From assembly GCA_020073305.1 (NCBI GenBank), contig JAIQFK010000023.1, forward strand, positions 1-64,000: a stretch of 64,000 bases of DNA, read 5' to 3'. Source of the DNA: Terriglobia bacterium. Its GTDB lineage: Bacteria > Acidobacteriota > Terriglobia > Bryobacterales > Bryobacteraceae. The notes beneath the pieces were generated by a model that was not told where the DNA came from, searched no databases, and saw nothing but the letters and a program-made list of their open reading frames with translations. Both the position numbers and the translations under genes were made by a program. Below are positions 21,684 through 51,078 of the stretch, piece after piece (within the stretch, counting starts at the first letter, position 1; each line of letters opens with the position of its first letter).

Positions 21684-21813
21684 AACTCCTGAGCGGCCAA
21701 AATTAGACTTGCGAGAATTCCTCGGCCGCAAATGCAGGGAGAGTGTCCCGAGTTTGGGAACTCCTCCCTTCGATTTCTCACCAACGCCAACTCCCACGGC
21801 AAAGCCGCGCCCT

Positions 21814-27132: not shown

Positions 27133-27167
27133 TAACGCATGGAGCGATGTTCAAGTGCCTTCACCTG

Positions 27168-28559
27168 ATGCTTTATCCCACGCGAGATCTTGTACGCAAG
27201 CGTATTGGCCGCGGTACGACGAGTACAGCATCCACCGGCCTGCTCTTGCCCGCAATCGTTCTAACGTTGTGGGTCGGCCCGCACGCGAACGCGCAGACCG
27301 CGGACCGGGGACTGCAGGTTGAGGGAATCTCGTTCTCGGAGACCTACTTCACGCAGTCGGTGCCAAACGGGGTTGCCACCTACGGCGATGTGTTTCTCGG
27401 GTCCGGGACCTCAGTGACTAGCGCGGCAACCATCAAGTGGACGAGGATTAGCGCCAAGTCTTTCATGAATTTGCGGGTTTTGCCGACATACGGAAACCGA
27501 TTTGGGGACCTGAAAACGCGCACGTGGGGCGACGCACTCTCCTTTATTTACAGCCGCAACCTAGCTAGCAAATGGACGATGAATTTTTCCGGATCAGCGC
27601 AGATAATGAACTTCGATGAAGCGCTCTTTGCCGAGTCCACTCTTACTCAGATCGCTTCAACCGCCATCACGTTCGACGACCTCGCGGGGTCCATTATCCA
27701 GGGAAAATCCTCCGATCCGCAGTTGAACAATACCGCCTATGGTTCGCTTCATCCGGATGGCGGCATTCAGACCTTTCTGTTTGGCCAGCGAACCGCAAAC
27801 GCCGGCGCACAGGCGACGCTCACATATGCCCGTTCGCCGCGCCTGTCGGTCAGTTTCATCGCTGGAGGGATGTTCGTGCGACACCTGAAAGACCCGTCTG
27901 ATCCTGCGGGCTTTATTTATCCGAAGGTGAATTCGACCGCCGCAGGAATTAACGCAACCTATTCACTCTCTCCCCGGACCCAAGTCGGCGTATCCGCGAA
28001 TATGGTTCGCAGCGAGTTCCTCGGCGCCACCAACCTCACCACCAACTCGTTCTCCGGTTCAATCAGCCGAACGATGAGTCGCCGGTGGTTCATGCAAGCA
28101 TCATTGGGGCTTGGCTCCGAGACCCTGGGAAGTGACCGGCACCTAAATAACCGATATTCGGCGGGCGTGGGTTTCAAAACTTTCAGTCATACCGCTCTGA
28201 TCGCCTACGAACGCGGACTTGACGACCCGTATGCGGTGACGTTGGCAACCCTGGAACATACGAGCGGTCTTACGGGAACCTGGCATTACGCTCGACCGGG
28301 TAGTCCGTGGTGGACCAATAGCTCCTTTTCTCAACTTGTCGCGATCTATCGGGGCGTCCCCGGGACCAACACCTGGCTGGTCTCGCAGACCGTAGGCAGG
28401 CGGATCAGCCGGAATTGTTCTTTTGTAGTGCAATACACCGCGGCTCGAGTTGGCGCCAAACGGTACATTCTTGACGGGCGCCAGTACCAGTTGGAGCAAA
28501 CCGGGATTCGCACGACGTTTATCTGGACCCCACAACCGGCGCCACGCCCTCAGGGATGA
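27168..28559 (+). CDS. Outer-membrane beta-barrel protein (putative) of the EPS locus
   Basis: A 463-residue protein with a basic N-terminus and a signal peptide ending near ANAQ (about residue 43). The rest alternates hydrophobic and polar residues in beta-hairpin style (ATIKWTRISAKSFMNLRVLP, ARSPRLSVSFIAGG, YSLSPRTQVGVSANM, NRYSAGVGFKTFSHTALIAY) and ends with the aromatic-rich IRTTFIWTPQP, as expected for an outer-membrane barrel. Many EPS loci encode such barrels for polymer export or anchoring, but this is inference. Its TGA overlaps the ATG of the lyase-like gene. ATG 27147 is an alternative start but would leave almost no leader after the sigma-54 promoter. Confidence 0.72.
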   Translation: MLYPTRDLVRKRIGRGTTSTASTGLLLPAIVLTLWVGPHANAQTADRGLQVEGISFSETYFTQSVPNGVATYGDVFLGSGTSVTSAATIKWTRISAKSFMNLRVLPTYGNRFGDLKTRTWGDALSFIYSRNLASKWTMNFSGSAQIMNFDEALFAESTLTQIASTAITFDDLAGSIIQGKSSDPQLNNTAYGSLHPDGGIQTFLFGQRTANAGAQATLTYARSPRLSVSFIAGGMFVRHLKDPSDPAGFIYPKVNSTAAGINATYSLSPRTQVGVSANMVRSEFLGATNLTTNSFSGSISRTMSRRWFMQASLGLGSETLGSDRHLNNRYSAGVGFKTFSHTALIAYERGLDDPYAVTLATLEHTSGLTGTWHYARPGSPWWTNSSFSQLVAIYRGVPGTNTWLVSQTVGRRISRNCSFVVQYTAARVGAKRYILDGRQYQLEQTGIRTTFIWTPQPAPRPQG

Positions 28560-31138
28560 CGAAATATCGGCAACCCTTAGGCTTCAGTTGCGGATACGTG
28601 CTGAAAACATCAATTCTCTTCCTCTTGGCCCTGTCCGTCATCGCGAGGGCGGCTCAATCAGTCGCTCCTCATCCGCGCATCTGGCTGACCAGCCAAATGA
28701 TCGCTGATATGAAGGCCAAGAAAGCCGTCTCGGATCCGGACTGGGTCGCCATCAAGGCCTCCGCAGACGATATACTGGCCCGACGCATCCCGAAGCTGAC
28801 GATCGTCTCGGCCACCAATGCGAACCCGGTGGTGTTTACGACGAACCAACCCCTTCCATGGCACGGGACCGCGACCAGAGTTTATTTGGCTGGCGCGTCT
28901 GGCGCGTGGCTGCCCATAGACAACAACCCAGCCACCAATGGTTGGACGGCGACCGCCAAAGGCGCGAACAAATTTAGCATCCCCGTCGACTCAACATCCT
29001 TCGGCTCATTCGCGGAGCAGACCTTGACGTTTTTCATGGCCGAGGGAGAGAACAACCCGGGCTTCCTCGCCTACGGACAAACCGGCTCCGGCTGGTACGA
29101 TGCTCTCCTTCAATGCGGGCTCGTGTACAAGGTCACGGGCGACTCGAAATACGCAACCAAAGCGCTCGCGCTGCTCGATTGGATCAATACTCTGGGTGCT
29201 GCCGGCATGATCTCTCCGGTCTCGCAGGACAGCGGACGAGGGAGTATGGGCGCCACTCTGGGCGTGGCCATCGCCTATGACTGGTTTTACGATTTGTTGA
29301 GCCCTCAACAAAAGGACGCAACCGCTGCGACGCTAAACTTATGGAACGCGTGGACTCAAGCCCACGCATTTTCCACCACAGACCCGCGGAGCAACTATTG
29401 GGAGGCTCACGTAACGGCTTCGGCCGCCAGCGGATATGCAACCTATGGGGACAATTCAAATGCCCGGACGCTGATTGATTGGGCTGCGAACAACTGGAAC
29501 TCCCACTTCGACCCGAAGTTCTTCAATCCACCCAGCACGACCGCAAAAGCGGCAGAGGATTCGAGCGGCTATTTCTACGGTGGCTTGGCTATCCTCGGAT
29601 ACAACTACGGCGGAAACGACATATCACGCCACCTCAAGTATATGTTGCTTTTGAAGACGGCAACGGGAATCGAGATGCTCGCCACGCGGGATTACGGTCG
29701 CCGATGGACCACGGACCTTATCTATTCGCTCAAACCAGATCGTTGGCACGTTCCACCGCTGGGTCAGTGGCCCGGCTCCTGGTACGGAGTGATGACGCTC
29801 AGCGAGGCACTAATGCTCTCGTACTCGTTGGAAGGAACAACAGAAGGCGGTTGGGCGCAGTGGCTGTACCAGCATATGGGGAAATATCCACCCGAAGTAG
29901 GTCCCGTTATTCAACCAACCGTCCAGGACCGCTTCATGTTTTTCAAGTGCAGTCGCACTGCCGTTGACTATCGAGCCGCGCAACCCCCTTTCCATTTCTC
30001 AGACGGTGGCGAAGCGCAGGTGTTTTGGCGGTCGGATTGGAGCGATACGGGAGATTACGCATTTGTAAACGCTGCAGACGCACACTATACGCCGATCACT
30101 CCAAAGCATGCAGGGCATATTGACCTCACGCGCGGAGCCGACTATCTGCTAGTCGCGTCGGGATGGTGGAAGGGAAGTACCGGTGATGGCACGACCGGCA
30201 CTCCGGAGAATATCGCCCAAAACAGCGCGATGCAGAGCACGTTGTATTTCTGGGACGGCGGCTCGGCTGCTGGCGGTAAGTGCTTTAATCAAGACGCATC
30301 CTATGACGGATGCCAGCTGGGATTTGGTATTTACAGGCCGCCCATTCAGAAACTGACGTCACACTTCGCGTTCACAGAAAATGATTTCTCAACATCCTAC
30401 GACCACGCACAGATCCCAGCCAACCGTACATTACAGTATTTCTTTCGCGCCTTTGCGGCATTAGGTAACGGCACCTATGTCGTTTGGGACAGAGTTCAGT
30501 CCACCCGTGCCAGCCACATCAAACAACTCCGGTGGCAGTTGTCCGCCGCGAGCACTCCTCGTTTGAGGGCTAGCACGATTGAGAGCACGGTTGGCTCTTC
30601 CAAGATTTTCATCAAAACGTTGCTGCCGGCATCTCCGCAAATCAACATTGTGCGCAACCTCACGGTCAACGGTTGCCGGCCGATCAACTGGCGAGCCGAG
30701 GTCACGGACTCTTCACCCGCCACCACATTCAATGGGCTGACTGTCCTGTTCACTGGTCCTAACAGCGGATCGCTTCCAGATACGACTCCTCTTTCTACGG
30801 ATTCCAGCCACGTGGGAGTTCAGATCGCAGGGAGCGCCCCGAAGGTCGCCATCTTCCCACGGGGCACGATCGCGGTGGGAGACGGAACGTTCAATTCCGC
30901 GACGTATTCGTCGGTCAGTTTCTCAAGCACGCACTCCGGAACTGGCCAGTACTTAATTGCCGGCCTAGAGCCGGGCACGTATGCCGTGCACAAAGACGGG
31001 GCAACGGTGAAAGGACTGGAAGCGGTTGCGGTCGCCTCGGCTGGAGTTCTTGACTTCAGATCTGCCGCCGGTTCCTTCTCTGTCGCTGAAACCGCTCCGC
31101 GAGTTGCGAATCAAGAATCAGGCTCGGGCCAAGAATGA
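28556..31138 (+). CDS. Secreted heparinase II/III- or alginate-lyase-like protein
   Basis: An 860-residue protein with a signal sequence (about residues 15-33). The mature N-terminus PHPRIWLTSQMIADMKAKKA parallels AHPRIILDAPTLATLRARAH in the giant protein at 14217-20228. An alpha-helical toroid-like part (YDALLQCGLVYKVTGDSKYA, then GVAIAYDWFYDLLSPQQ) is followed by a beta-rich half with GEAQVFWRSDWSDTG and KHAGHIDLTRGADYLLVASG, the place where heparinase-type enzymes carry active-site Tyr and His residues. It should act on an anionic polysaccharide outside the cell, perhaps the product of this locus. It is coupled to the beta-barrel gene upstream and to the GT4 downstream (both ATGA overlaps). 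Confidence 0.8.
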   Translation: MTKYRQPLGFSCGYVLKTSILFLLALSVIARAAQSVAPHPRIWLTSQMIADMKAKKAVSDPDWVAIKASADDILARRIPKLTIVSATNANPVVFTTNQPLPWHGTATRVYLAGASGAWLPIDNNPATNGWTATAKGANKFSIPVDSTSFGSFAEQTLTFFMAEGENNPGFLAYGQTGSGWYDALLQCGLVYKVTGDSKYATKALALLDWINTLGAAGMISPVSQDSGRGSMGATLGVAIAYDWFYDLLSPQQKDATAATLNLWNAWTQAHAFSTTDPRSNYWEAHVTASAASGYATYGDNSNARTLIDWAANNWNSHFDPKFFNPPSTTAKAAEDSSGYFYGGLAILGYNYGGNDISRHLKYMLLLKTATGIEMLATRDYGRRWTTDLIYSLKPDRWHVPPLGQWPGSWYGVMTLSEALMLSYSLEGTTEGGWAQWLYQHMGKYPPEVGPVIQPTVQDRFMFFKCSRTAVDYRAAQPPFHFSDGGEAQVFWRSDWSDTGDYAFVNAADAHYTPITPKHAGHIDLTRGADYLLVASGWWKGSTGDGTTGTPENIAQNSAMQSTLYFWDGGSAAGGKCFNQDASYDGCQLGFGIYRPPIQKLTSHFAFTENDFSTSYDHAQIPANRTLQYFFRAFAALGNGTYVVWDRVQSTRASHIKQLRWQLSAASTPRLRASTIESTVGSSKIFIKTLLPASPQINIVRNLTVNGCRPINWRAEVTDSSPATTFNGLTVLFTGPNSGSLPDTTPLSTDSSHVGVQIAGSAPKVAIFPRGTIAVGDGTFNSATYSSVSFSSTHSGTGQYLIAGLEPGTYAVHKDGATVKGLEAVAVASAGVLDFRSAAGSFSVAETAPRVANQESGSGQE

Positions 31139-32442
31139 AAAATGCACACTCGAACGTGCAGAATGGCGCGAAATTGCGGACTGAAGCGTTGACCATGGCG
31201 AAGACTGACGCGATGGATTCAAACACTGTGGAACTCCAGGGCTACAGAAGCAGGCGACTGAAGATCCTCAGTTTGAGTACGGAATACCCGAACCCGGTGG
31301 AACCTGGCAAGGGGCTTTTTGTCCACGCCCGGCTCCAAAGCATTGCAACTGGGGCGGATCTTACGGTCATTGCGCCGGTCGCGGTACTTGACTACGCGAA
31401 CCCGGAAGGACGCCTTCTTGCCAGCTTCACAATCCCGAAATCGCGCACAGATCACGGTATAAGGGTGTTCCACGTGCGATGGCTATATCCTCCGCTCGGC
31501 GGCTGGTTGAACGCCTTCTTCCTGTATCTCCGCCTACTTTTGCCGGTGGCGCGGCTTCGTCTGAATCACGCGGTCGACCTCATCGATGCTCACTTTACTC
31601 ACCCCGAGGGCATTGCGGCGGCCCTCCTCGGAAGGACTCTTGATATACCAGTCATGATCACGATGCGCGGAAGCGAATTACGCTACCAGCGTCACCGGCT
31701 GAAGAGGGTCTGGATGGCATGGGCTCTACGGCGGGCGGAGCGCGTGATCACGGTGTCCGACGGGTTGCGAGCCTTGGCCGTTGCGCTCGGGGCGGATCCA
31801 TCCGCGGTCAAGACCGTACCGAATGGCATCAACAACGACATATTCTTCCGGCGAGATCACGAGGCGTGCCGCCGCATCCACGATATTCCGAAAGATGCCC
31901 TCGTGGTTCTCTCCGCCGGCGACCTCGCGCGACTCAAGGGACATCACCGCGTCGTTGAGGCCTTGCGTAGCTTGGTTGACGAGGGACTGCCCGCTTACCT
32001 CCTGATTGCAGGGGGTGTGGGCCGGTCGGGACAATATGCGGCCACGTTACGCATGCGCGTCACAGAGCTTGGGTTGGAGGACAAGGTGAGGTTCGTTGGC
32101 ATGGCATCACAAAACACACTTGCCGAACTGATGTCTGCGGCCGGTGTATTCTGCCTGGCCAGTGCCAGCGAAGGATGGCCGAATGTGGTGAACGAGGCAC
32201 TCGCCTGTGGAACGCCTGTGGTCGCCACCGACGTAGGCGCCGTAAGGCAGATGCTGCCTTCAGGCCAGTTTGGAACTGTGGTACCGGTGGATGACACTCC
32301 ATCGCTGAGAGCGGCGTTGCGCGAGGCGCTGACGCGCGCGTGGGATCACGCTGCGATCTCGAACTGGGGACGATCGCGCTCCTGGGATCAGGTCGCCAAA
32401 GAAGTATTGGAGGAAGCGGCACAGGCGGCTGCCCACGTATGA
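31135..32442 (+). CDS. Glycosyltransferase family 4
   Basis: A 435-residue GT-B enzyme. KILSLSTEYPNPVEPGKGLF near residue 43 is the N-terminal signature; DLIDAHFTHPEGIAAALLG, ITMRGSEL and VKTVPNGINNDIFF follow. The donor-site region reads VLSAGDLARLKGHHRVVEAL, LLIAGGVGRSGQYAATL and ASASEGWPNVVNEALACGTP, a good GT4 E-x7-E pattern. The first ~40 residues are extra relative to the family; a later start at 31195 (MAKTDAMDS) is possible. It overlaps the genes on both sides by ATGA, so it belongs to the sigma-54-preceded operon 27168-33194. Confidence 0.92.
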   Translation: MKNAHSNVQNGAKLRTEALTMAKTDAMDSNTVELQGYRSRRLKILSLSTEYPNPVEPGKGLFVHARLQSIATGADLTVIAPVAVLDYANPEGRLLASFTIPKSRTDHGIRVFHVRWLYPPLGGWLNAFFLYLRLLLPVARLRLNHAVDLIDAHFTHPEGIAAALLGRTLDIPVMITMRGSELRYQRHRLKRVWMAWALRRAERVITVSDGLRALAVALGADPSAVKTVPNGINNDIFFRRDHEACRRIHDIPKDALVVLSAGDLARLKGHHRVVEALRSLVDEGLPAYLLIAGGVGRSGQYAATLRMRVTELGLEDKVRFVGMASQNTLAELMSAAGVFCLASASEGWPNVVNEALACGTPVVATDVGAVRQMLPSGQFGTVVPVDDTPSLRAALREALTRAWDHAAISNWGRSRSWDQVAKEVLEEAAQAAAHV

Positions 32443-33194
32443 CCAGTGCGCGAGTTATCATCAACGCCGACGATTTGGGAATCAGCGAAGTGGTCAACGA
32501 CTCTATTTTCGATCTGATGGCGCGGCGGCGGGTCACGTCTGCCACAGTGATGGCAAACGGACCAGCGTTTAGACACGCCGCGTCAAAGATTACGCACTTT
32601 CCACGCTGTTCGTTCGGCGCCCACCTCAACCTGACCCAGTTCGAGCCCGTGACATCGGGCCTTGACGCGGCCCGTCTGACTGGTGCCAACGGCTTTATGT
32701 CGCGAAGCCTCCAAAAAGAACGGTTCGGACCTAAACTGCTTTCAGCCACATATCAGGAACTATGCGCCCAAGTCGATCTGCTCGGTTCCGCAGGAATTGA
32801 ACTCAGCCATTTCGATTCCCATCATCATGTTCACACCAATCCTCAACTCCTACCAGTCATAAAAGCCTTGCAGAAGCGATACGGGATCCGGAAGGTGCGG
32901 ATCTCGAAAAACATCTACACTCCCCAGCAACCGGTTAGCTTCACACTCGCTCGAAAGAAGATGGCCTACAACTGGGCGCTGCGCAACTTCTACGCAACTC
33001 GCACGACCGATGGGTTCACGGAACTGCTTTCGTACCAAACCGAGTTTGGCCGAAGAGCGCTTTCCTATCGGAGCGTCGAACTGATGGTGCATCCGGGTGC
33101 TCCCTACGCCGCGGAAGAAATTGCCGTTCTGGAATCAGATTGGCTGACCGCTTCGGGCCTTGACGCTCGATTGATCAGCTATAACGAGCTGTAG
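32439..33194 (+). CDS. ChbG/YdjC-family carbohydrate deacetylase
   Basis: A 251-residue protein. The metal-binding Asp-Asp appears in VIINADDLGIS near the N-terminus and the His cluster in SHFDSHHHVHTNPQLLP, with GAHLNLTQ between them. Family members remove acetyl groups from N-acetylated mono- or oligosaccharides. The ATG at 32439 is chosen because it overlaps the upstream stop (ATGA) and gives the normal N-terminus. It is last in the operon and could deacetylate an amino sugar of the EPS or its breakdown products. Confidence 0.9.
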   Translation: MTSARVIINADDLGISEVVNDSIFDLMARRRVTSATVMANGPAFRHAASKITHFPRCSFGAHLNLTQFEPVTSGLDAARLTGANGFMSRSLQKERFGPKLLSATYQELCAQVDLLGSAGIELSHFDSHHHVHTNPQLLPVIKALQKRYGIRKVRISKNIYTPQQPVSFTLARKKMAYNWALRNFYATRTTDGFTELLSYQTEFGRRALSYRSVELMVHPGAPYAAEEIAVLESDWLTASGLDARLISYNEL

Positions 33195-33227: not shown

Positions 33228-34652
33228 TTAGAACTGGAAATAAATAAACTGCGCGTCCCGGTCGTCGAAGGTCAGGAACAAAAGTAGTCCGCACGCGTAC
33301 ATCGCGGGACGAAGTAGAAAAACGTTGGCCGGCGCGGCAATGCGCCTCTCGAGCGCGCGCAGCCATCCGGCAAGCATGGGTTCCACCGTCGCAAACAACA
33401 TCACGAGCATGGTAATGAGGTAGAAATTGATCGAATACGAAGGGCGCAGCCCGTGCGGCACCACAAGGCTCCACAACATGACCAGCGACTGATGCAGAGT
33501 CGCGGCACGGAAAGGAATCCACGCCGCCATTACCGCCAGCACCGTGACAATGCGCAAGACCACGGAGGAGATGCGCGAGGCATGCAGAGCGGGGAAGCTC
33601 CGGCCCAGTTGTTCCCAAATACGAAAGAGCACCAGGTAAACGCCGTGCAGGGCACCCCAGAGCACAAAACCCCATCCCGCTCCGTGCCACAGCCCCACTA
33701 GCGCCATCGTTCCGACGAGGCTGAGATAGAGAGCCGCCCGGGCGCCCTGGAACTTGGCGGTGACTGGAAAGAACAGATAGTCCCGGATCCACCGCGAAAG
33801 TGTCATGTGCCAGCGTGACCAGAACTCTGCCGGGCTGCCGGCGTGATACGGAAAATTGAAGTTTTCCGGCAACGTAATTCCGATCAGGCACGCAGCGCCG
33901 ATCGCCATGTTTGAGTAGGATGCGAAGTCAAAATAGATTTGCAGACCGAACGCAAAAGCGAAGAACCAGTTGTCGACCGTCGTGTTGGCGCCCGCCGCCT
34001 GGGCAAGAAAGCCCATATCCACCCACGGAGCGAGATTGTTCGCAATCAAATTCTTCTGCACCAGCCCCAAAACGATCCGGTCGAGCCCCTGAATCAACAT
34101 GTTCACGTCAAACTGCTTTTTGAACCCGAGCTGCGGAACCAGTTCCCGAACTCGGACGATCGGCCCCGCGATCAGGTGCGGCCAGAAAGTGACAAAGATG
34201 CATAGATCCTGGAAACTCACCTTCTTCACGCGCCCCTGCCGGGTATCAATCAGGTAACTGATCGCCTCAAATGAGTAGAAAGATATTCCGAGCGGAAGCC
34301 CGAGCACAACGATCGCCCGGACCGGTGATTGCCCCAACATCTGGAGCATCCCGTTGACATTGTCGATGAGAAACTGCCGGTATTTGAAAAAGACGAGTAT
34401 TGACAAGACGAAAATCGTACCGCTCCACATGGCCGTGCGCGCATTCCGCGGGCTCGCAATCATTCTCCGCGCGCAGAGGAAGACGACGGCGCAAATCAGG
34501 AACGGCAACAGCGCAAACGTCCACGTCCACGAGGCATAGAAGGCGACACTCAACACCAGCACATACCACCGTCGCAGGCCGATCGGGACCATCCAGAATA
34601 TACCGACGGCGACAAATAACAGGACGAAATATGAATAGGAGTTAAACTGCAC
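33228..34652 (-). CDS. MBOAT-family O-acyltransferase (DltB/AlgI-like)
   Basis: A 474-residue polytopic membrane protein. The catalytic His is seen as His323 in ALVGLWHGAGWGFVLWGALH, preceded by the conserved WHMTLSRWIRDYLFFP and the upstream LPLGISFYSFEAISYLID, YFDFASYSNMAIG and LPENFNFPY motifs. Such proteins move acyl groups across the membrane onto extracytoplasmic polysaccharide. It is the last gene of a four-gene minus-strand cassette (ligase, carrier protein, SGNH, MBOAT); its ATG is 3 bases after the SGNH stop. It most likely takes the acyl group from the carrier protein, as DltB does with DltC. Confidence 0.93.
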   Translation of the reverse strand: MQFNSYSYFVLLFVAVGIFWMVPIGLRRWYVLVLSVAFYASWTWTFALLPFLICAVVFLCARRMIASPRNARTAMWSGTIFVLSILVFFKYRQFLIDNVNGMLQMLGQSPVRAIVVLGLPLGISFYSFEAISYLIDTRQGRVKKVSFQDLCIFVTFWPHLIAGPIVRVRELVPQLGFKKQFDVNMLIQGLDRIVLGLVQKNLIANNLAPWVDMGFLAQAAGANTTVDNWFFAFAFGLQIYFDFASYSNMAIGAACLIGITLPENFNFPYHAGSPAEFWSRWHMTLSRWIRDYLFFPVTAKFQGARAALYLSLVGTMALVGLWHGAGWGFVLWGALHGVYLVLFRIWEQLGRSFPALHASRISSVVLRIVTVLAVMAAWIPFRAATLHQSLVMLWSLVVPHGLRPSYSINFYLITMLVMLFATVEPMLAGWLRALERRIAAPANVFLLRPAMYACGLLLFLTFDDRDAQFIYFQF

Positions 34653-34654
34653 GG

Positions 34655-35824
34655 TTAATATTCCCCCAAAACATCCCGTATAAAAGCAGCCACCTTGCGG
34701 GCAACCACGGCGTGGCCGGCGCGCCCCATGTGCAATGGATCCGGACCGTTCAGTTGGCGGCCCCAGAATCTGCCCGTGACCGAGGATTCCAGATCGGCCA
34801 CCGGAAGGCGGTAACGTTCGGCTATTGTGCGGACGAACCCGTCGTATCGCGACTTATCCTCGGGAGAGCGATACAGCGAGACGGAGGGATTGACGGGCGC
34901 TTTGAAGATCGCCAGCCGGACACCGGCAGCACGGCAGGACTCCGCGATCTCTTCCACGGCCGCTTGGCTGCGACTAAGCTGCGGGCCCGAGATGGAACGG
35001 GCGTTGCTCGGTTTGATTCGAAGGAAGTAGGTACGCGCCCTATAGATCATCTCTTCAAACGAATCCTTGGCCTGATGGCGCCGCCGGTATACTTCGACCG
35101 CTGAGAGCTGCCGGCGCGTGAGATTCTCCAGGCCGAAACCGAAACCCGCCTGTTGCATCGGGCTTGGCGACCCTGGCCGGGTCTCTCGCTCCTCGTAGTT
35201 TGTCACGGCGGAGGCGAAGTCATCCGCGTACGGTTTACCGGACCGGGCAAGTTTTCTCGCTTGCTGATGGAATTCGGGTTCGTCAAGGAGTTCGAGAAGA
35301 GACTCGCGAATCCCGCTATTCCAAAAGGCCTGGTAGTTCATTTGGAGTACGATTAACGACGGTCGCAGATCGGGACGACTTAAGAGGTAGTCGATCTCGC
35401 ACAGTGCTTCGCTATAGCTCAGACCAGGAGCCGCTAGACGATAAGTCGGGACGGACTCCGGCTGCAGGAGAGCCATCACAAGGTCCGGGTAGGTGGGCTC
35501 CGGCGCGGCTTGGGGGAGCTCCCCCGAGGCGAGACTAAGGGAAAACATCTGCGAGTTGCCGATCAGCACTACCCGTCGCTTTCCCGGCTGCGTGCGCCAG
35601 TATTCGGCGGCCCGCTGGAAGCTCGTCAGGGGATGTTCACTATGATAGATGTCCTGGGTGCGGGGATCGCGAACCAGATTCGTGACCTGCGTCCATTTTG
35701 GCGCCGCGCCGAAAGCAGCGTCGAGGATCGAGCTGATGCCGCCGAACGGATCGATCCAGAGAAGCGCCGAAGTCAGGAGCAGGGTACTCACCAATACACC
35801 GGTGGCAATCAGGGGAGCTTTCAT
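34655..35824 (-). CDS. Membrane-anchored SGNH-like protein (DltD/AlgX-like role)
   Basis: A 389-residue protein with one N-terminal membrane segment (residues 4-24) and a periplasmic SGNH-hydrolase-like domain. The nucleophile block is RRVVLIGNSQMFSL with Ser91, and the Asp-x-x-His motif is near the C-terminus (DPLHMGRAGHAVV, Asp362 and His365). DltD, AlgX and AlgJ use such domains in the final transfer of acyl groups to the polymer. The ATG at 35824 overlaps the carrier-protein stop (ATGA), which decides the start over the in-frame codon at 35863. It lies between the carrier protein and the MBOAT gene. Confidence 0.85.
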   Translation of the reverse strand: MKAPLIATGVLVSTLLLTSALLWIDPFGGISSILDAAFGAAPKWTQVTNLVRDPRTQDIYHSEHPLTSFQRAAEYWRTQPGKRRVVLIGNSQMFSLSLASGELPQAAPEPTYPDLVMALLQPESVPTYRLAAPGLSYSEALCEIDYLLSRPDLRPSLIVLQMNYQAFWNSGIRESLLELLDEPEFHQQARKLARSGKPYADDFASAVTNYEERETRPGSPSPMQQAGFGFGLENLTRRQLSAVEVYRRRHQAKDSFEEMIYRARTYFLRIKPSNARSISGPQLSRSQAAVEEIAESCRAAGVRLAIFKAPVNPSVSLYRSPEDKSRYDGFVRTIAERYRLPVADLESSVTGRFWGRQLNGPDPLHMGRAGHAVVARKVAAFIRDVLGEY

Positions 35825-36069
35825 TGGGAAATGGCAGCCCGTTCCACGGTATCGACAATCCATTCGATGGTTTCGAAATCATCGGGTTGAAGATTCGCCG
35901 GTGGGATGGACACCTTCAGCCTCCTTTCCAGGCCGCTGATCAGCTTTAGAATCGAAAGCGAATCGATACGGCCGGAGGAGATGAGGGGTTCGTCGTCTGA
36001 TACTGCGGCGCCAACCATGTCGCAGACCACTTCGTGGGCAGCCAGGCGGATAGTGTTTCGATCGCGCAT
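35821..36069 (-). CDS. Acyl/peptidyl carrier protein (DltC-like position)
   Basis: An 82-residue carrier protein. The phosphopantetheine attachment Ser37 lies in SGRIDSLSILKLISGLERRL, and the fourth-helix region reads DDFETIEWIVDTVER. The frame is open further upstream, but the ATG at 36069, four bases after the ligase stop, gives the usual carrier-protein length and N-terminus (MRDRNTIRLAAHEVV). It is expected to be loaded by the ligase encoded just upstream and to deliver the acyl group to the MBOAT protein. Confidence 0.9.
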   Translation of the reverse strand: MRDRNTIRLAAHEVVCDMVGAAVSDDEPLISSGRIDSLSILKLISGLERRLKVSIPPANLQPDDFETIEWIVDTVERAAISQ

Positions 36070-36073
36070 AAGG

Positions 36074-37804
36074 TTAGTTGCACCCAGTATGGAGAATGCC
36101 CCGGACCAGGTTTTCCTTCTCCTGAAGAAATCGAACATGAGTTTCGCCCCGCGAGATTTTCCCAGCGGTGCTTTTGACAATCCATCGCTCGGGAACCGCG
36201 AAAACGTAGCGCGGCGCGATGCCTATCGCGGAAAGGACCAGTTTCTGAATATCGCGCTGCACCAGTCGGGCGTGTTCCCGGCGGTATTCGCCTCGCAGCT
36301 CGGCAATCACGGTCAGTGCTTCGGTTCCAAGCTCGTTGTCTTCCACTCCGAACGCCACCACCCGTCCCGGATAGATTCCATCCAGACCGTTGACCACCGC
36401 TTCAACGTCTTCCGGAAAAACGTTCTGCCCTCCGACGATCACGATGTCTTTCAAGCGGCCAATGACGTATAGATCGCCTGCCGCCAGAAAGCCGTAGTCG
36501 CCCGTGGAATACCATCCATCCGCGGAGCGCGCGTTCTTGACGAATCCTTCGTTGCCCCAGTATCCCGAAAACAACGACTCCGTCCGGATCAGGATCTCGC
36601 CCGGTTGTGCCTCGGCAAGCTCTTCTTCTCCGGCGGTAATTCGAAGTTCCACGCCTGCCAGAGGCTTGCCGCTCGAGACATACACCGCATCAAGCAGGTC
36701 GAAGGCCAACGGCGAAACAGCCGCCGTCCGGTGAAACTGCAGCGCGCTTCTGGCAAATACCGGCGGCGCTTCCCCGAGCGCCGTCTGCGTCACGGCAAAA
36801 ACGTTTTCTGCCATGGCGTAGCTCGCTTGCAGGCTTTCCCTGGTAACTCCCCATTCGGCAAATGCCTCAACGAAGCTGTCCATCGAGGCCTGCCGAACCG
36901 GCTCGGAGCAACTGATCCACCCGCGAACATGTCCCAAGGAGTAAGTCCCCTTCATTCGCCCCTTCTGTGCAGCCAAATAGGAGAATGCGAAATTAGGCAG
37001 CCAGCAGAAAGTCGCACGGAATTTCTCCATGTGATCGAAGATTGACTCTGGATTGAGCAGCCAATCCGTGGCGCTGAACTGGAGAGAAGGGGCGCCAGAC
37101 AACAGGGGAAACCACAGGCATCCCACCAGCCCCATGTCGTGATACATCGGCAGCCACGAGGCCACACGGTCTTCCGCCGTGAAAGCCAGGCATTCCCGCA
37201 ATCGGCTTAACTGCGCGACCAGCATTTCTGCCGTAACTACCACCGCCTTTTGCGCTCCGGTCGTACCCCCGGAAAACTGAAGAAACACGCTACCTTCCGG
37301 TGCGACTTGCTCGGGCAGATGTTTCTCCGTGCCGGTTGACGCTTCGATCTCCGGGGGAATCGCGAACGTTTTTTCAAATGTAACGGCGCTCTCAATCGGG
37401 CAGGCCGTCACCTTATAGGACAGCGCCAGTTCCATGTTTTGCGCCAGCCGGGGAAGAGTGATCAACTGGCTGGCCGGCAGGTTGCGCAACTGATGTAACA
37501 AGTTTCGCTGATACTTCTGGGAATCGACGCGGCTCGTAGGCCAAGCCAGGATGGCCGGAATCCTGCCCTCGAGAATCAGCCCCAGGTGCAGCAGAAACAA
37601 CTCCACGGAATGCGGCAGCAGCAGCACCACCACCCCAGCCTCGGGTGCGTCTTGATAGCGTCGCGCCAACTCCACCGCGCGCTGCAGGATAGCCGCTCCC
37701 GTAAGCTCGATGCTCTCCGCGCCTATCACAATCCGCAACAGCGTTCGGTGGCTATTCCGTTTCAGGTGCTCACGTAGATGATTGCGGAAGGACGCAGAGG
37801 TCAT
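36074..37804 (-). CDS. Fatty-acyl-AMP ligase (FAAL-type adenylate-forming enzyme)
   Basis: A 576-residue ANL-superfamily enzyme. The P-loop-like A3 motif is FLQFSGGTTGAQKAVVV. WLPMYHDMGLVGCLWFPLLS is the signature that separates FAALs from acyl-CoA synthetases and from DltA. The A5 region is SYAMAENVFAVTQ, A7 is STGDYGFLAAGDLYVIGRLK, followed by DIVIVGGQNVFPEDVEAVV, and the C-terminal Lys is in VKSTAGKISR. It should activate a carboxylic acid as acyl-AMP and load the carrier protein encoded four bases downstream. It is divergent from the glycosyltransferase at 37980. The acyl chain is unknown. Confidence 0.9.
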   Translation of the reverse strand: MTSASFRNHLREHLKRNSHRTLLRIVIGAESIELTGAAILQRAVELARRYQDAPEAGVVVLLLPHSVELFLLHLGLILEGRIPAILAWPTSRVDSQKYQRNLLHQLRNLPASQLITLPRLAQNMELALSYKVTACPIESAVTFEKTFAIPPEIEASTGTEKHLPEQVAPEGSVFLQFSGGTTGAQKAVVVTAEMLVAQLSRLRECLAFTAEDRVASWLPMYHDMGLVGCLWFPLLSGAPSLQFSATDWLLNPESIFDHMEKFRATFCWLPNFAFSYLAAQKGRMKGTYSLGHVRGWISCSEPVRQASMDSFVEAFAEWGVTRESLQASYAMAENVFAVTQTALGEAPPVFARSALQFHRTAAVSPLAFDLLDAVYVSSGKPLAGVELRITAGEEELAEAQPGEILIRTESLFSGYWGNEGFVKNARSADGWYSTGDYGFLAAGDLYVIGRLKDIVIVGGQNVFPEDVEAVVNGLDGIYPGRVVAFGVEDNELGTEALTVIAELRGEYRREHARLVQRDIQKLVLSAIGIAPRYVFAVPERWIVKSTAGKISRGETHVRFLQEKENLVRGILHTGCN

Positions 37805-37979
37805 GTTTCATCCCACGAATACAGTTGACCGGTTGCCCGTCACTGCAATCGAGCTAACTGCACACCGCAAACCAAACGGATACTGGATTGCTCTTCCTCG
37901 CTGGGGTAGTGAGTTGCCGTTGCCGTTCGGAAAGAACACTCCATCCGCGGTCGTCGGCATTCCCCAAAAATCACCAAAA

Positions 37980-39149
37980 ATGCCCCAACACGGGTTGTCG
38001 ATCATCTATTTCGGGAACGATTGGGCGGCCGAAAACCGCACCAGCAGTCATCACGTTGCGGAGCGGCTTGCCGCTCGGATGCCGCTGCTCTATATCGACT
38101 CACCTGGGCTCCGCGCACCGACTACCAGCCGCCGCGATATGCAGAAGCTTTTCCGGAAGATAATCGATGCATTTCGCGTGCCACAGCCAATTGGCCCGCG
38201 GATGTGGAGTATAAGCACTCCTCAGATACCGTTTCGCAGACTGCCGCTTGTCAATCTCCTGAATCGGTTGTTAGGACGCTTTCTTGTGAAGCGGGCCGTT
38301 CGGCGGTTGGGCTTCCGGGACCTGATTTCCTGGTTTGTAGTGCCCCATCCGGGACCTTTGGCTGGTTCGTTTGGAGAAAAACTAATCGTCTACTATTGCA
38401 TCGATGATTATGCAGCACTGCCCGACGTCGATTCAGAAGAAGTCGCTCGGATGGACGAAAACCTGACCCGGCGCGCGGATCAAGTCTTCGTAGCTTCTCC
38501 CACTCTCGTCGAGGCCAAGAAACGGCTCAACCCGCAGACTCACTATTCGCCCCACGGTGTGGATGTCGAGCTGTTTGCGCAAGCTTCTGACCCGTTGTAC
38601 ACCATGGCGGAGGCGGCGGCAAAGCTGCGGCATCCGGTTATCGGATTCTTTGGGCTCATCGAAGCCTGGATCGATCTCGAACTGATCGCGTACCTGGCAG
38701 CGTCTCGTCCGCAGTGGACATTTCTTATGATCGGCCGCCTTGCGGTGGACAACGCCTGTGTGAAGCACCTGGCAAACGTCGTCTTCACCGGTCCCAAGCC
38801 GTATGGGACTCTGGCCCGATGGGCGCGAGCGTTTGATGTCGCCGTCATTCCGTATAAACGTACGAGGCAGGTTCTGAATTCAAACCCCCTGAAGTTGCGG
38901 GAGTATCTGGCAACCGGCAAGCCCGTGGTGGGGGTGCCCATCCCGGAAACCCTCCGCTTTGGCGACTGCGTGCGCATCGCCGGTAGCCGGGAGGAATTCA
39001 TGGCAGCCATTGAGCATGCGCTAGCTTCAGATTCGCCGGCAGACGCGCAGCGGCGCATGGCCGCCGTAGCCGGCATGAGTTGGGACGCACGTGTGGATGA
39101 AGTTCTGCGGGTGGTACAAAATCGGCTCGACACAATAGAAAAAACATGA
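37980..39149 (+). CDS. Glycosyltransferase, GT4-like (GT-B)
   Basis: 389 residues from ATG 37980 (MPQHGLSIIYFGNDWAAENR), the usual start of this subfamily, followed by RMPLLYIDSPGLRAP. Further motifs are YYCIDDYAALPDVD, ADQVFVASPTLVEAKK, YSPHGVDVELF, VIGFFGLIEAWIDLELIAYL and NSNPLKLREYLATGKPVVG. The frame is open upstream to 37782, but that would overlap the start of the divergent ligase and leave no promoter space. The short distance leaves 37805-37979 for divergent promoters. It overlaps the next gene by ATGA. Confidence 0.85.
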   Translation: MPQHGLSIIYFGNDWAAENRTSSHHVAERLAARMPLLYIDSPGLRAPTTSRRDMQKLFRKIIDAFRVPQPIGPRMWSISTPQIPFRRLPLVNLLNRLLGRFLVKRAVRRLGFRDLISWFVVPHPGPLAGSFGEKLIVYYCIDDYAALPDVDSEEVARMDENLTRRADQVFVASPTLVEAKKRLNPQTHYSPHGVDVELFAQASDPLYTMAEAAAKLRHPVIGFFGLIEAWIDLELIAYLAASRPQWTFLMIGRLAVDNACVKHLANVVFTGPKPYGTLARWARAFDVAVIPYKRTRQVLNSNPLKLREYLATGKPVVGVPIPETLRFGDCVRIAGSREEFMAAIEHALASDSPADAQRRMAAVAGMSWDARVDEVLRVVQNRLDTIEKT

Positions 39150-41242
39150 CAGAACTGTTACCTGCAAGAAAACTTCGCGCTGGGATAGCCGGCGCGGGCT
39201 ACGTGAGCGCCTATCACATACGTGCGGTCCAAAGCCTCGATTTCGCCGAGGTGGTAGCTATCGCGGACGTGGACCTTCAACGCGCACGTGAAGTTGCCGG
39301 GCGGTTCCATATTCCTGCCGCTTGCGGCTCCCTGGAAGAGATGCGCGCCGCTTCACCCGATATGATCCACGTCCTCACCCCGCCAGGTCTTCATTGCGAT
39401 CTTGCGGTGCGGGCTCTTGAAATGGGTTGCCATGTCATGGTCGAGAAACCCATGGCGAATACCGTTGAGGAATGCGATCGCATGATAACCGCCGCTCGTC
39501 GCAACGGCCGCACCCTTACTGTCAATCATTCCGCCCGGATGGACCCGATTGTTCTTGAGGCATTGCAGCGCGTCCGCGAAGGCGAAGTGGGGAAGGTGCT
39601 GGCGGTCGATTTTTTGCGGAGTTCGGACTACCCGCCGTACACAGGCGGCCCTTTGCCTCCCCCTTACCGCAATGGCGCCTATCCGCTCCAGGACATCGGT
39701 GTGCACGGCCTTTATTTGCTCGAAGCCTTTCTCGGCCCTGTCCGTTCGGCGGACATTCGCTACGCCTCTACCGGGCGTGACGTAAAACTCTTATTTGACG
39801 AGTGGCGCGCGACGGTTAATTGCGAAAACGGTACCGGTCACATGTATCTTTCGTGGAACGAGCGCCCCATGCAGAATCTGTTGATCGTACACGGGACCCT
39901 TGGCGTGATGCAGGTGGATTGTTTTCTGCAGTGTTGCACGGTACGCAAGGCGTATTCAGCGCCGAAGCCCGTGCAGATCATCCTGGGCGCGGTCAGCACC
40001 TCGGTTGCCACTCTGGCCGCAGTAACGCGAAACACCTTCCGGTTCGCCACGGGTAAGCTGGTTCCTTCTCCTGGAATTCACCGGAGTGTGTGCGAGTTCT
40101 ACAGGTCTGTTGCAGCCGGTTTAGCGCCACCGGTTAGCCCGGGTGAAGCCAGGCGTATTATTGAGGTGCTGCAACCAGCGGCTGCGAGAGCGGATGCTGA
40201 CTGGCAGCGCTTTTTCGCGCCTTCGCGCTCCCCTGGCACGGCCTCCGTTCTCGTCACGGGCGCAGGCGGCTTCATAGGGCGCGCGCTCATCAACCGCCTG
40301 CGCGAATCAGGCAAGAGGATCCGCGTTCTTTCCCGGAGACCCATCCCAGGTTGGGATACGGACTCGGATCTTCAAGTAGTCTATGGCGACCTGGGTGATC
40401 CGGAAATCGTGCACCGCGCGGTCGAAGGAGTAAGCACTGTATATCACGTGGGCGCGGCAATGAAGGGGGGAATCGCTGACTTCCACAGCGCGACCGTCGT
40501 GGGAACTCAGAATGTAGTCGATGCCGCCTTGAAGTACGGGATCCGCAGGTTGGTACATGTCAGTTCGATTACCGTTCTGGATTACGCCGGCCACCGCGGA
40601 GCGCCAATGACTGAAGAGTCTCCTATGGAGCCGCATCCGGAATGGCGAGGTGCGTACACGGAGAGCAAGTTGCGGGCCGAGCGGATCGTTTTGGATGCCA
40701 TCGGGAAAGGTCTTCAGGCTACGATTGTGCGCCCAGGGCAAATCTTCGGGCCTGGCGCCGAAATGCTCCCGCCTTACGGCACCATCGCCCTCGCGGGGCG
40801 ATGGGTAGTCGTCGGTACGGGGAACATTCTCCTGCCACTGGTGTATATCGACGACGTGGTGGATGCGCTGGTGCTGGCCGCCCAACGGGACGGGGTTTGC
40901 GGTAAGACTTTCCAGCTTGTCGACCGCGAGCGCCTCACCCAACGGCAGTACATTGACCACTGCCGTGAGCGCCACGGACAAAAGATTCGAGTAGTTTATG
41001 TTCCGAGGCCCGCTTTCTACGCCGCGGGGATCGGGATAGGCGCCTTGGGGAGGCTTCTCCGGCGCTCCGTCCCTTTGTCCCGTTATCGGGTTTCCTCGAT
41101 TCGGGGAATTGAGACCTTCGACTGCTCCGCAGCACGCGAACTGCTGGGCTGGGCACCCCGTATTGGAGTGAAACGAGGCATGAAGTTGATGTGTAGTCCT
41201 CCCTCCCCAGCAAGTCATGCCGCACTTATCGGCGTGGCATGA
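39146..41242 (+). CDS. Fusion protein: Gfo/Idh/MocA oxidoreductase plus NAD-dependent epimerase/dehydratase
   Basis: A 698-residue protein made of two enzymes. Residues ~10-350 are a Gfo/Idh/MocA oxidoreductase: Rossmann motif GIAGAGYVSAYH, then HVLTPPGLHCDLAVRALEMG and the conserved VMVEKPMANTVEECDRM. Residues ~365-690 are an extended SDR (NDP-sugar epimerase/dehydratase type): SVLVTGAGGFIGRALINRLR, VYHVGAAMKGG, HVSSITVLDYAG, and the catalytic Tyr-x3-Lys in GAYTESKLRAER near residue 503. The two activities could act in turn on one NDP-sugar, for example oxidation and epimerisation of a uronic acid or amino sugar precursor. It is cotranscribed with the upstream glycosyltransferase. Confidence 0.9.
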   Translation: MTELLPARKLRAGIAGAGYVSAYHIRAVQSLDFAEVVAIADVDLQRAREVAGRFHIPAACGSLEEMRAASPDMIHVLTPPGLHCDLAVRALEMGCHVMVEKPMANTVEECDRMITAARRNGRTLTVNHSARMDPIVLEALQRVREGEVGKVLAVDFLRSSDYPPYTGGPLPPPYRNGAYPLQDIGVHGLYLLEAFLGPVRSADIRYASTGRDVKLLFDEWRATVNCENGTGHMYLSWNERPMQNLLIVHGTLGVMQVDCFLQCCTVRKAYSAPKPVQIILGAVSTSVATLAAVTRNTFRFATGKLVPSPGIHRSVCEFYRSVAAGLAPPVSPGEARRIIEVLQPAAARADADWQRFFAPSRSPGTASVLVTGAGGFIGRALINRLRESGKRIRVLSRRPIPGWDTDSDLQVVYGDLGDPEIVHRAVEGVSTVYHVGAAMKGGIADFHSATVVGTQNVVDAALKYGIRRLVHVSSITVLDYAGHRGAPMTEESPMEPHPEWRGAYTESKLRAERIVLDAIGKGLQATIVRPGQIFGPGAEMLPPYGTIALAGRWVVVGTGNILLPLVYIDDVVDALVLAAQRDGVCGKTFQLVDRERLTQRQYIDHCRERHGQKIRVVYVPRPAFYAAGIGIGALGRLLRRSVPLSRYRVSSIRGIETFDCSAARELLGWAPRIGVKRGMKLMCSPPSPASHAALIGVA

Positions 41243-46920: not shown

Positions 46921-47155
46921 AAGGCATCACGTCGCATAACGAACTTAGAACAGACAATTTACAACGAATTGCCATTTTGGGTACCCAGGACGAAAAGCGG
47001 GGAATCGAGTCGAATCTTGCGGAACCGCCTATAGCTGTGGGGACTTCCCTCACTGATGACTGTCTTTGAGGACAAAGTCCAAAAGGACTGCGAGCTTTTC
47101 CTCGAACCGCGAAGAAACGGTTCCCATCGCGAGGGCAAGAAAGCCAAATGAGGTT

Positions 47156-47171
47156 TGGTCCAGCACGTGCT
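47156..47171 (+). promoter_or_regulatory. Candidate sigma-54 promoter for the wzc-like operon
   Basis: TGGTCCAGCACGTGCT shows GG-N10-GC spacing with a GTGCT -12 box (like the asnB candidate). The start would be near 47182, 38 bases before the ATG at 47220. It is divergent from the candidate at 46904. Confidence 0.4.
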
Positions 47172-47219
47172 AACAACGGCAAGATATTGCCAACACACAT
47201 TTCAGGATCTTCGGACACA

Positions 47220-48809
47220 ATGAAAAACTCGTTATCGACTCCGCCGCTCTCGCTAATCAAAATGATCTGGAACCGCAAGTGGCTGTTACTGAGTGTGTGG
47301 GCAATTCTCAGTGTGTCGACTGTCAAGGTGGTGTACAATCTCCGGCCCACCTATCGCGCAGAAGCCGTCGTGCTTGTCGATTCTCAGAAGATCCCGGAAC
47401 GGTATGTTTCGTCCACGGTGAATACAGAAGTGCAGGACCGGCTGGCGACCATTAGCCAACAGATACTGAGTTTCAGCCGCCTGCAGAGGGTTATCGATGA
47501 CTTTTCTCTCTACCCGCGGGAAAGGAAGAGTCTCAGTCCGGAAGAGCTGATAGACACGATGCGGAAAGATATCAATATTAAGCTCGAGCGCGGTTGGACG
47601 GGCAACCGGCCAGGCGCCTTCCGGATTGCATATTCGGGGGAGGATCCAAACACAGTCGCTCAAGTGGCCAACCGTTTAAGCGTCTTATTTGTCGACGAGA
47701 ATATGCGCACCCGAGAGGTTCAAGCCATAGGCACCGAGGAGTTCATCACTGCGCAGCTAGGGGAGGCAAAGAGGTCCCTGGATCATCTTGAGGCCAAGGT
47801 CAGCCAATATAAGCTCAGTCACAGCGGCGAATTGCCCGAGCAGCAGCAATCGCTCATCAGTACATTGGCACAGTTACGGTCTATCCTGGATGCCAGCCGC
47901 GACAACTTGAATCGCGCGCAGGATGCAAAGGTCACGCTCGAAAACAATCTGAGCATGACCGAGATCACTCTTCACGCTCTGGAGAAGAGCTCGGCCGAGC
48001 GAGCACAAGCTGAGGCCGCTCCTCCGCCACGGCAAAAGCCGGAGTCGGAGGTCCTCCAGGAGCGGTATACAAACATGCTGAAACGGTACTCTCCTAATCA
48101 TCCCGACGCGCAGGCGCTCCGGCGTGCCATTGAAGCAGCGGTCGAACAGGAACGATCGAGCGCGCAGCAGACTCCCGCTAAAGCGGCTCAAATCAAGCCG
48201 GAAGCGACAGGTGCGTCGTCCAATACGCTACAGCTGGAACAGACGCGCGAGCACGTTCGAATGCTGAAGTCCCAGATCGCCCAGGCAGAAAAGGAACTCC
48301 TCACCCGTAAGGCCGAGCAGGATAAGACCCTCATGGACATCTCAACGTCTCAGGACCGCTTGGGGAGGCTCCCGCTCCGGGAGCAGGAAATGGCGCAACT
48401 GTTACGCGACTATGAGAACTCCAAGAGCAATTACCGGATGTTGCTGGACAAGAAGCTTGCGGCCGAGATGTCTACGGAGTTGGAGCGCCTTCATAAGTCA
48501 GAGCGGTTCACGATCCTGGATCCGGCGCGCCCGCCTACGAAGCCAATGAGCCCCAATCGCCCGTTACTTTATGCCGCCGGTTGCCTGCTCGGACTGGCTT
48601 TAGGTGTCGGCCTGACCTTGCTCCTTGAGTCACGCAAAGCCGTGTTCCTCGGGGAATGGGAGTTGCCGGAAGGAGTCATGGTGCTGGGAAGATTACCCGT
48701 GGTTGAGATTTTGCCGACGGCCGGAAGCGAGTCGAAAAAGCCGGGATTTTGGCGGCGCCGGCGTCTTAGAGCGGAGACCTGGGCCACATCGGCCCAGCCA
48801 CTTCAATAA
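47220..48809 (+). CDS. Polysaccharide chain-length determinant, Wzc/GumC-like without kinase domain
   Basis: A 529-residue inner-membrane protein. A first membrane helix (WLLLSVWAILSVSTVKVVY) follows a short cytoplasmic N-terminus. Then come the Wzz-type periplasmic part (YRAEAVVLVDSQKIPERYVS), long coiled coils (about residues 180-420; FITAQLGEAKRSLDHLEAKV, VRMLKSQIAQAEKELLTRKA), the Pro-rich PARPPTKPMSPNRP motif before the second helix (LLYAAGCLLGLALGVGLTLL), and a short tail. It sets EPS chain length together with the separate CpsD-like kinase at 49853. ATG 47220 is chosen because it follows the candidate promoter and matches the family N-terminus. Confidence 0.9.
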   Translation: MKNSLSTPPLSLIKMIWNRKWLLLSVWAILSVSTVKVVYNLRPTYRAEAVVLVDSQKIPERYVSSTVNTEVQDRLATISQQILSFSRLQRVIDDFSLYPRERKSLSPEELIDTMRKDINIKLERGWTGNRPGAFRIAYSGEDPNTVAQVANRLSVLFVDENMRTREVQAIGTEEFITAQLGEAKRSLDHLEAKVSQYKLSHSGELPEQQQSLISTLAQLRSILDASRDNLNRAQDAKVTLENNLSMTEITLHALEKSSAERAQAEAAPPPRQKPESEVLQERYTNMLKRYSPNHPDAQALRRAIEAAVEQERSSAQQTPAKAAQIKPEATGASSNTLQLEQTREHVRMLKSQIAQAEKELLTRKAEQDKTLMDISTSQDRLGRLPLREQEMAQLLRDYENSKSNYRMLLDKKLAAEMSTELERLHKSERFTILDPARPPTKPMSPNRPLLYAAGCLLGLALGVGLTLLLESRKAVFLGEWELPEGVMVLGRLPVVEILPTAGSESKKPGFWRRRRLRAETWATSAQPLQ

Positions 48810-48839
48810 CGGATGATGCCGGCTGCGTCGTAGAAAACC

Positions 48840-51067: not shown

Positions 51068-51078
51068 GAATCGCGCCC

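Follow-up and report, generated by a model that had tools for sequence, protein, structure and literature searches.

A fatty-acyl-AMP ligase, carrier, SGNH, and MBOAT cassette as a candidate carrier-fed acylation system in an acidobacterial exopolysaccharide locus

A 64,000-nucleotide stretch of DNA from Terriglobia bacterium (GCA_020073305.1, contig JAIQFK010000023.1, positions 1 to 64,000; hereafter the window) carries a cassette of four minus-strand genes that fill positions 33228-37804 and encode, in order, a fatty-acyl-AMP ligase (FAAL), an acyl carrier protein, an SGNH protein, and an MBOAT. The cassette is a hybrid, joining Dlt-style carrier supply to a PatA-style MBOAT. It is also a real conserved unit, rare and patchy in distribution, whose genes stay together. 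Its probable function is to attach a fatty acid to the locus's own exopolysaccharide, the MBOAT and SGNH protein being fed by the carrier.

Gene content and conservation of the cassette

A preliminary description of this DNA had listed four adjacent, nearly gapless minus-strand genes, and the gene calls agree, with junctions of +4, -4, and +2 bases. The residues it had singled out—Ser37 in the carrier; Ser91, Asp362, and His365 in the SGNH protein; and His323 in the MBOAT—are all where it placed them, and its WLPMYHDMGL signature was found at ligase residues 217-226. Pfam matches to AMP-binding, PP-binding, and MBOAT lie above their cut-offs, with Lipase_GDSL_2 below, and the Dlt-like set of four functions proposed earlier was recovered. 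Since the same four-gene order recurs in related genomes, the cassette is not a product of chance.

Four of the five best NCBIfam rows for the ligase were FAAL, fatty-acid-AMP ligase, acyl-carrier-protein ligase, or related nonribosomal peptide synthetase (NRPS) or polyketide synthase (PKS) loading models, all below their cut-offs, and no DltA model was among the best 25 of 100 rows. Among its relatives of known structure are 3pbk (EcFAAL), FadD32, FadD23, and FadD28; the best row is 3kxw (E = 2.9e-46), a Legionella FAAL. In EcFAAL, W224, M231, and F279 crowd the coenzyme A (CoA) pocket, and Pro226 is a further mark of FAALs (PMC8460268, excerpts). Mapped via the alignment to 3pbk, whose chain numbering is one lower than that of the paper, EcFAAL W224, P226, M231, and F279 correspond to W217, P219, M224, and F272 of the window ligase. 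All four marks are present in 10/10 ligases of the window type (nine from cassettes and a solitary one from genome G073, the truncated ligase of locus L089 being outside this count), and their retention fits a ligase that loads a carrier rather than CoA. The FAAL insertion of ~25 residues in the N-terminal domain is present in the window ligase and in those of loci L073 and L074, but the ligases of L127 and L148 and the second ligase of L086 lack it. An argument that the window ligase lacks the amino-group-binding Asp typical of amino-acid ligases was dropped as not diagnostic, since Asp223 aligns with the Asp of the L148 ligase.

The FAAL character claimed for the ligase in the preliminary description is thus upheld by the best models, the residues, and the insertion. 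These features, in which the ligase is unlike the DltA-like ligase of L148, also argue against an account in which it would activate a short hydroxy acid or an amino acid, making the cassette a functional Dlt analogue. That account draws on the carrier, whose best NCBIfam row is DltC (NF003464; 29.6 bits, below the cut-off of 68), and on related loci in which a carrier and an MBOAT have a DltA-like or FkbH protein as neighbor; we hold it to be improbable, the least probable of the alternatives weighed here. The DSL site was found in 10/10 aligned cassette carriers.

The only sequence relative of the MBOAT in the PDB is DltB (E = 1.8e-28). On the DltB model (TIGR04091, an equivalog), the MBOAT scored 185.4 bits, below the cut-off of 375, and six other MBOATs tried, one of them a cassette relative, scored 157.6 to 176.3 bits; this score fails to separate carrier-linked from other MBOATs and was rejected as a sign of carrier use. 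At its C terminus, the MBOAT has FIYFQF, a point that the preliminary description had missed, and His323, F469, Y471, and F474 are invariant in 10/10 cassette MBOATs. Among stop-to-stop frames of ≥20 aa in the 64-kb window, to which the search was confined, that of the MBOAT is the only one with a C-terminal FxYxxF; DltX was not sought in the rest of the genome. PatA acetylates the Tyr of its own C-terminal FxYxxF, a motif that shuttles acetyl to PatB, whereas in Dlt the motif is on a separate protein, DltX (PMC12148441, excerpts). Because the motif is fused to the MBOAT, we classify the cassette as a hybrid and not as a Dlt member.

The SGNH protein has a weak Pfam call (Lipase_GDSL_2, E = 5.6e-5, 24.1 bits, under the cut-off of 32.9), and PF04914 (DltD) was not reported for it at E ≤ 1. 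Its AlphaFold model has a mean predicted local distance difference test score (pLDDT) of 83 and an N-terminal helix at residues 3-24. In Foldseek, the first five rows for this model were DltD (best E = 8e-6; template modelling scores of 0.40 to 0.47). In VIA-align, the model matched TesA-type esterases with Z of ~17 over ~170 residues, DltD with Z of 14.5 over 260 residues (root mean square deviation of 4.0; the longest alignment of 50 rows), and PatB with Z of 14.3 over 176 residues, so that the scores of PatB and DltD differ by less than 1 Z. AlgX and AlgJ did not appear in these 50 rows, an absence that rules nothing out. The structural matches to SGNH enzymes, DltD among them, therefore lend support to the weak Pfam call, and on the strength of this model the protein may work like DltD despite the PF04914 miss. 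Among aligned members, Ser91 and His365 are present in 9/9 and Asp362 in 8/9. The PDB yielded only a chance-level sequence match (E = 0.45) as a solved relative, and it was rejected.

A scan of the genomes of 84,980 species for the MBOAT gave 246 relatives, of which the best 80 were retained; the scan patterns contained DAQFIYFQ, so the share of FxYxxF among these 80 loci is biased. Ten loci (L083-L092), one from Candidatus Binataceae and the others from Acidobacteriota, have an MBOAT 50 to 60% identical to that of the window, and the next relative among the best 80 of 246 is 41% identical. L092 starts at a contig edge inside the MBOAT and was left out of counts of upstream genes. FAAL and carrier are present in 9/9 close loci with upstream DNA (the L089 FAAL being cut by a contig edge), and all four genes occur in the order of the window, with the SGNH gene between carrier and MBOAT, in 8/9. 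A survey of gene order, suggested earlier as a check on the cassette, has thereby been run and does not refute it.

Searches with the SGNH protein, which give only matches within their E limits, pointed the same way. Among 199 genomes of the phylum, a strong match was found in 2 (the window genome and G147) and a weak one in 4. Among 399 genomes of the class, 6 had SGNH profile matches at E ≤ 1e-20, with FAAL, carrier, and MBOAT adjoining in 6/6, and no SGNH match at this threshold occurred without FAAL and carrier. These six are the window and five loci from the MBOAT scan, and the MBOATs of those five end in FIYFQF. The window genome has the same family code as G235, whose locus is identical to L083 (Bryobacterales bacterium), which marks it as acidobacterial by kinship.

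Exopolysaccharide context and proposed acylation route

The window holds a Wzx/Wzy-type exopolysaccharide locus (Table 1); the location given in the preliminary description is supported by the Wzx/Wzy/Wzz-like, sugar transferase, and glycosyltransferase genes.

Table 1. Cassette genes, sites, and neighboring exopolysaccharide genes in the window
Feature	Position	Strand	Remarks
Fatty-acyl-AMP ligase (FAAL)	36074-37804	-	576 aa; first cassette gene; Pfam AMP-binding, 1.8e-39
Acyl carrier protein	35821-36069	-	82 aa; Ser37 in DSL motif; Pfam PP-binding, 3e-7
Carrier Ser37 codon, expected phosphopantetheine site	35959-35961	-	Position derived from gene coordinates
Membrane-anchored SGNH acyltransferase-like protein	34655-35824	-	389 aa; start overlaps carrier stop (ATGA)
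MBOAT	33228-34652	-	474 aa; GTG start; catalytic His323; Pfam MBOAT, 1.5e-22
Acyl-shuttle motif (FxYxxF) fused to the MBOAT C terminus as FIYFQF; includes Tyr471	33231-33248	-	Invariance in cassette MBOATs
Phosphoglycosyl transferase (Bac_transf)	20239-21684	-	Pfam PF02397, 1.6e-67
Glycosyltransferase and YdjC-like protein	31135-33194	+	Adjoining cassette; Pfam
Glycosyltransferase, then Gfo/Idh/MocA-epimerase frame	37782-41242	+	Pfam
Wzz-like, AAA ATPase, AAA_31 (kinase-like), glycosyltransferase, Wzy_C, Polysacc_synt (Wzx-like)	47148-58789	+	Pfam

Homologues of the exopolysaccharide genes of the window were found in 6/10 close loci (L084, L085, L086, L087, L088, and L091), three of which (L084, L085, and L086) have a Bac_transf homologue upstream of the cassette. 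Two genes precede the cassette of L084 (Edaphobacter sp.) on the same strand, one for a sugar transferase at 1154-2530 and one for a family 2 glycosyltransferase at 2527-3711. With the FAAL start aligned to that of the window, the gap between glycosyltransferase and FAAL is 50 bases; translational coupling of the two was considered and dropped, since an overlap arises with the longest FAAL frame, which starts 4 bases inside the glycosyltransferase stop. L083 carries a family 2 glycosyltransferase.

On the proposed route, the FAAL would adenylate a free carboxylic acid, most probably a fatty acid of medium or long chain, and the acyl group would pass to the phosphopantetheine of the carrier, since the FAAL-defining residues suggest that the CoA pocket is blocked. 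The acyl-carrier would dock at the cytoplasmic face of the MBOAT, where His323 would help transfer the acyl group to Tyr471 of FIYFQF. In the periplasm, Ser91 of the SGNH protein would accept it from Tyr471, and the SGNH protein would hand it to a hydroxyl of the polymer, esterifying the exopolysaccharide. The transfers through Tyr471 and Ser91 are modeled on the PatA and Dlt precedents and the acceptor on gene context; the chemistry of all steps, the nature of the acyl chain, and the acceptor are what we infer from genes and sequences.

Several observations weigh against this proposal. FAALs in general accept many chain lengths (PMC11837247, excerpts). Tyr471 could not be placed because the MBOAT model has a pLDDT of <50 at residues 466-474, and its proximity to His323 in that model was dropped as evidence. 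L090 has no cassette SGNH gene; directly upstream of its FAAL lies a gene for a different protein, whose weak GDSL match falls below the Pfam cut-off. The available DNA of L083, L089, and L090 holds no homologue of the window exopolysaccharide genes, and a weak epimerase match is the sole one in L092. Lastly, genome G073 has a solitary FAAL (L075:8773-10485) 56% identical to that of the window and no MBOAT match anywhere. Within 19 kb of this FAAL, no carrier, SGNH, or MBOAT homologue at 1e-8 and no carrier profile match were found, and for this reason its interpretation as a cassette remnant was dropped.

It is possible that the same carrier-fed machine serves an acceptor other than exopolysaccharide, such as a glycolipid, peptidoglycan, lipopolysaccharide, or another periplasmic molecule. 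MBOAT-SGNH pairs serve several polymers (PMC12148441, excerpts), and 3/10 loci have no exopolysaccharide homologues of the window type beside the cassette, a fourth having only a weak one. However, the window cassette sits among Wzx/Wzy/Wzz-like and glycosyltransferase genes, and in L084 the cassette comes after sugar transferase and glycosyltransferase genes of the same strand, which makes another acceptor rather unlikely.

The solitary FAAL of G073 would also suit a reading in which FAAL and carrier belong to an unrelated lipid pathway, the MBOAT and SGNH protein forming an ordinary acetyl-CoA-fed polysaccharide O-acetyltransferase. Acetyl-CoA has been demonstrated as the donor for PatA, whose FxYxxF is fused, and the same paper extends this to the other fused-motif systems (PMC12148441, excerpts). 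In addition, the second MBOAT of the window genome (L011) has no carrier or ligase profile match within the 19 kb read, as expected of an ordinary acyl-CoA system. Such a division of the cassette is quite unlikely given its near-gapless genes, the order fixed in 8/9 loci, and the SGNH protein that, at E ≤ 1e-20, never occurs without FAAL and carrier among the 399 class genomes. A 389-aa protein encoded near the L011 MBOAT looks SGNH-like by eye and has no Pfam match.

Genes beside one cassette may be relevant to the acyl group. After the MBOAT, L086:8441-13794 encodes a second carrier, a ketosynthase, an AMP-ligase that lacks the FAAL insertion, and, in addition, a hexapeptide protein and a methyltransferase; in this one locus, the downstream genes fit a lipid-like acyl group and could make or tailor it. 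Elsewhere in the window, a 698-aa frame (39146-41242) fuses a Gfo/Idh/MocA oxidoreductase to an NAD-dependent epimerase, and two large frames of the exopolysaccharide locus (28556-31138 and 27147-28559) have no Pfam match at 1e-5, the 860-aa one resembling polysaccharide lyases by eye. Two frames between the genes of 47148-58789 likewise have no Pfam match at 1e-5, and a 2014-aa frame (14184-20228) adjoins the locus.

Carrier-linked MBOATs beyond the window group

In a tree of the MBOATs (frames of <350 aa excluded), the window group forms one clade of 10 rows with a support of 100. Carrier genes also occur near MBOATs outside this clade. Loci L073 and L074, from other Acidobacteriota, encode an MBOAT, a carrier, and a FAAL-like ligase with the insertion in a row. 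They differ from the cassette in gene order and in having an MBOAT that is 28 to 32% identical and belongs to another clade; in L074, the FAAL residues are not all kept (C, P, F, and S at the four positions). The gene before the MBOAT in both loci is SGNH-like by eye only, with no such Pfam match. G192 (L072) has an MBOAT on a very long branch, a carrier, and a ligase.

Among 70 more distant loci, 12 had a carrier profile match ≤4.5 kb from the MBOAT; the seeds of the carrier and ligase profiles came partly from loci later counted (L127, L148, L140, and L162). An adenylating enzyme accompanies carrier and MBOAT in L127, L142, L148, and L150. A FkbH-like protein, identified by similarity to that of L136, was found in 8/8 of L126, L128, L136, L140, L141, L147, L158, and L162, and the NCBIfam FkbH match was checked, and lies above its cut-off, for L136 and L084. 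FkbH proteins make glyceryl-carrier, and these loci may put glycerate on polysaccharide.

The FkbH-carrier-MBOAT loci (L136:6713-11639 and seven others) are mostly alphaproteobacterial, and seven of the eight, all except L141, encode a protein that is SGNH-like by eye (the one in L136 has no Pfam match). Downstream of its cassette, L084:10285-14972 encodes FkbH, a carrier-like frame, a 353-aa protein, and a second MBOAT without C-terminal FxYxxF, possibly giving two acylation sets in one locus. L148:5899-12121 (Pseudomonas cremoricolorata DSM 17059) encodes an AlgX protein, an MBOAT ending in FLYFQF, a carrier, an AlgF protein, an acyl-CoA dehydrogenase, and a DltA-like ligase (333 bits against a cut-off of 560); together, the ligase, carrier, and dehydrogenase resemble a set for making an unsaturated acyl-carrier. 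In L142:5736-11721 ([Actinomadura] parvosata) and L150 (Nonomuraea), an MBOAT ending in FLYYRY occurs with a carrier and a long adenylating protein, which in L142 has 1005 aa and an amino-acid adenylation domain above cut-off. L127:5261-9420 (Clostridiales) encodes a carrier-like frame without a Pfam match, an AMP-ligase, and an MBOAT ending in FFYNQF; a further L127 protein is SGNH-like by eye and has no Pfam match.

A single clade of carrier-linked MBOATs was rejected (approximately unbiased test, P = 1.9e-5; 4 changes), with 24 carrier rows compared to 47 others. The reduced tree held 47/91 other rows, hand-chosen across the first tree, and 24/25 carrier rows, L072 being dropped for its long branch; the test was run after the first tree had been inspected, and the carrier label derives from gene neighbors. 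Given this result, fused-motif MBOATs probably acquired, or lost, their supply by carriers more than once. Judging from gene position alone, the carriers of the distant loci would feed their MBOATs.

We tentatively suggest, at somewhat less than even confidence, that carrier-fed, DltX-less MBOAT-SGNH cassettes form a general, repeatedly assembled class of envelope acylation systems. The MBOAT would be the common export port and the loader would be swapped (FAAL for fatty acids, FkbH for glycerate, and DltA-like enzymes or NRPS adenylation domains for amino acids), with the window member leading to a covalently lipidated exopolysaccharide. If the route proposed for the window cassette is right, it would break the working rule that fused-motif MBOAT-SGNH systems take acyl-CoA, and it would give a concrete genetic means of placing acyl groups larger than acetyl on a Gram-negative exopolysaccharide. 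Such an acylated polymer could be amphiphilic, which, speculatively, may be relevant to surface attachment and drying in soil. For unexplained acyl decorations, MBOATs neighboring a carrier protein and a loading enzyme are suggested as candidates.

Comparison with known acylation systems

The Dlt system for teichoic acid D-alanylation (DltA, DltC, DltD, DltB, and DltX) likewise combines a ligase, a carrier, an SGNH protein, and an MBOAT. DltB is the sole solved sequence match of the cassette MBOAT, and DltD heads the Foldseek matches of the SGNH protein. In contrast to Dlt, the cassette ligase is of FAAL type, the scores of MBOAT and carrier on the DltB and DltC models lie far under the cut-offs, the MBOAT itself carries the DltX motif with no separate one in the window, and the cassette lies in a Gram-negative exopolysaccharide locus. 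Dlt membership was rejected on the DltB, DltC, and PF04914 DltD models and on the lack of a separate DltX in the window.

PatA/PatB (peptidoglycan O-acetylation), AlgI (alginate), and WssH (cellulose) also pair a fused-FxYxxF MBOAT with an SGNH partner (PMC12148441, excerpts). The cassette shares with them the MBOAT His and the SGNH Ser-Asp-His but differs in that its gene set includes a FAAL and a carrier in 9/9 loci with upstream DNA. The preliminary description had set a Dlt-like cassette against AlgI/AlgJ/AlgX; the likeness in functions holds, but the contrast was incomplete, since the MBOAT has the PatA-type fused FIYFQF. A 2025 paper describes MBOAT-SGNH pathways apart from Dlt as lacking a carrier, which the present cassette has.

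The nearest precedent found, and a prior proposal of a carrier-fed MBOAT outside Dlt, is varlaxin, for which the adenylation protein AerO, carrier AerP, and MBOAT AerQ are assigned to one acid (PMC10143770, excerpts). That proposal came from a gene cluster and concerns a cyanobacterial natural product encoded beside an NRPS, with Hpaa as the acid and, in the excerpted text, no SGNH partner named (PMC10143770, excerpts). Stand-alone FAALs with an adjoining carrier also occur in lipopeptide and polyketide clusters (PMC11837247, excerpts), but in the cassette an MBOAT and an SGNH protein follow, and no NRPS or PKS was found among 20 scanned window neighbors. The words MBOAT, SGNH, and polysaccharide do not occur in that FAAL review. 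Among open-access PMC papers retrieved by full-text search and judged by titles and the starts of abstracts (most subscription papers and all preprints lie outside this set), none described a polysaccharide locus combining FAAL, carrier, MBOAT, and SGNH. Within the literature covered, the cassette is an undescribed variant of MBOAT-SGNH envelope acylation and not a member of Dlt.

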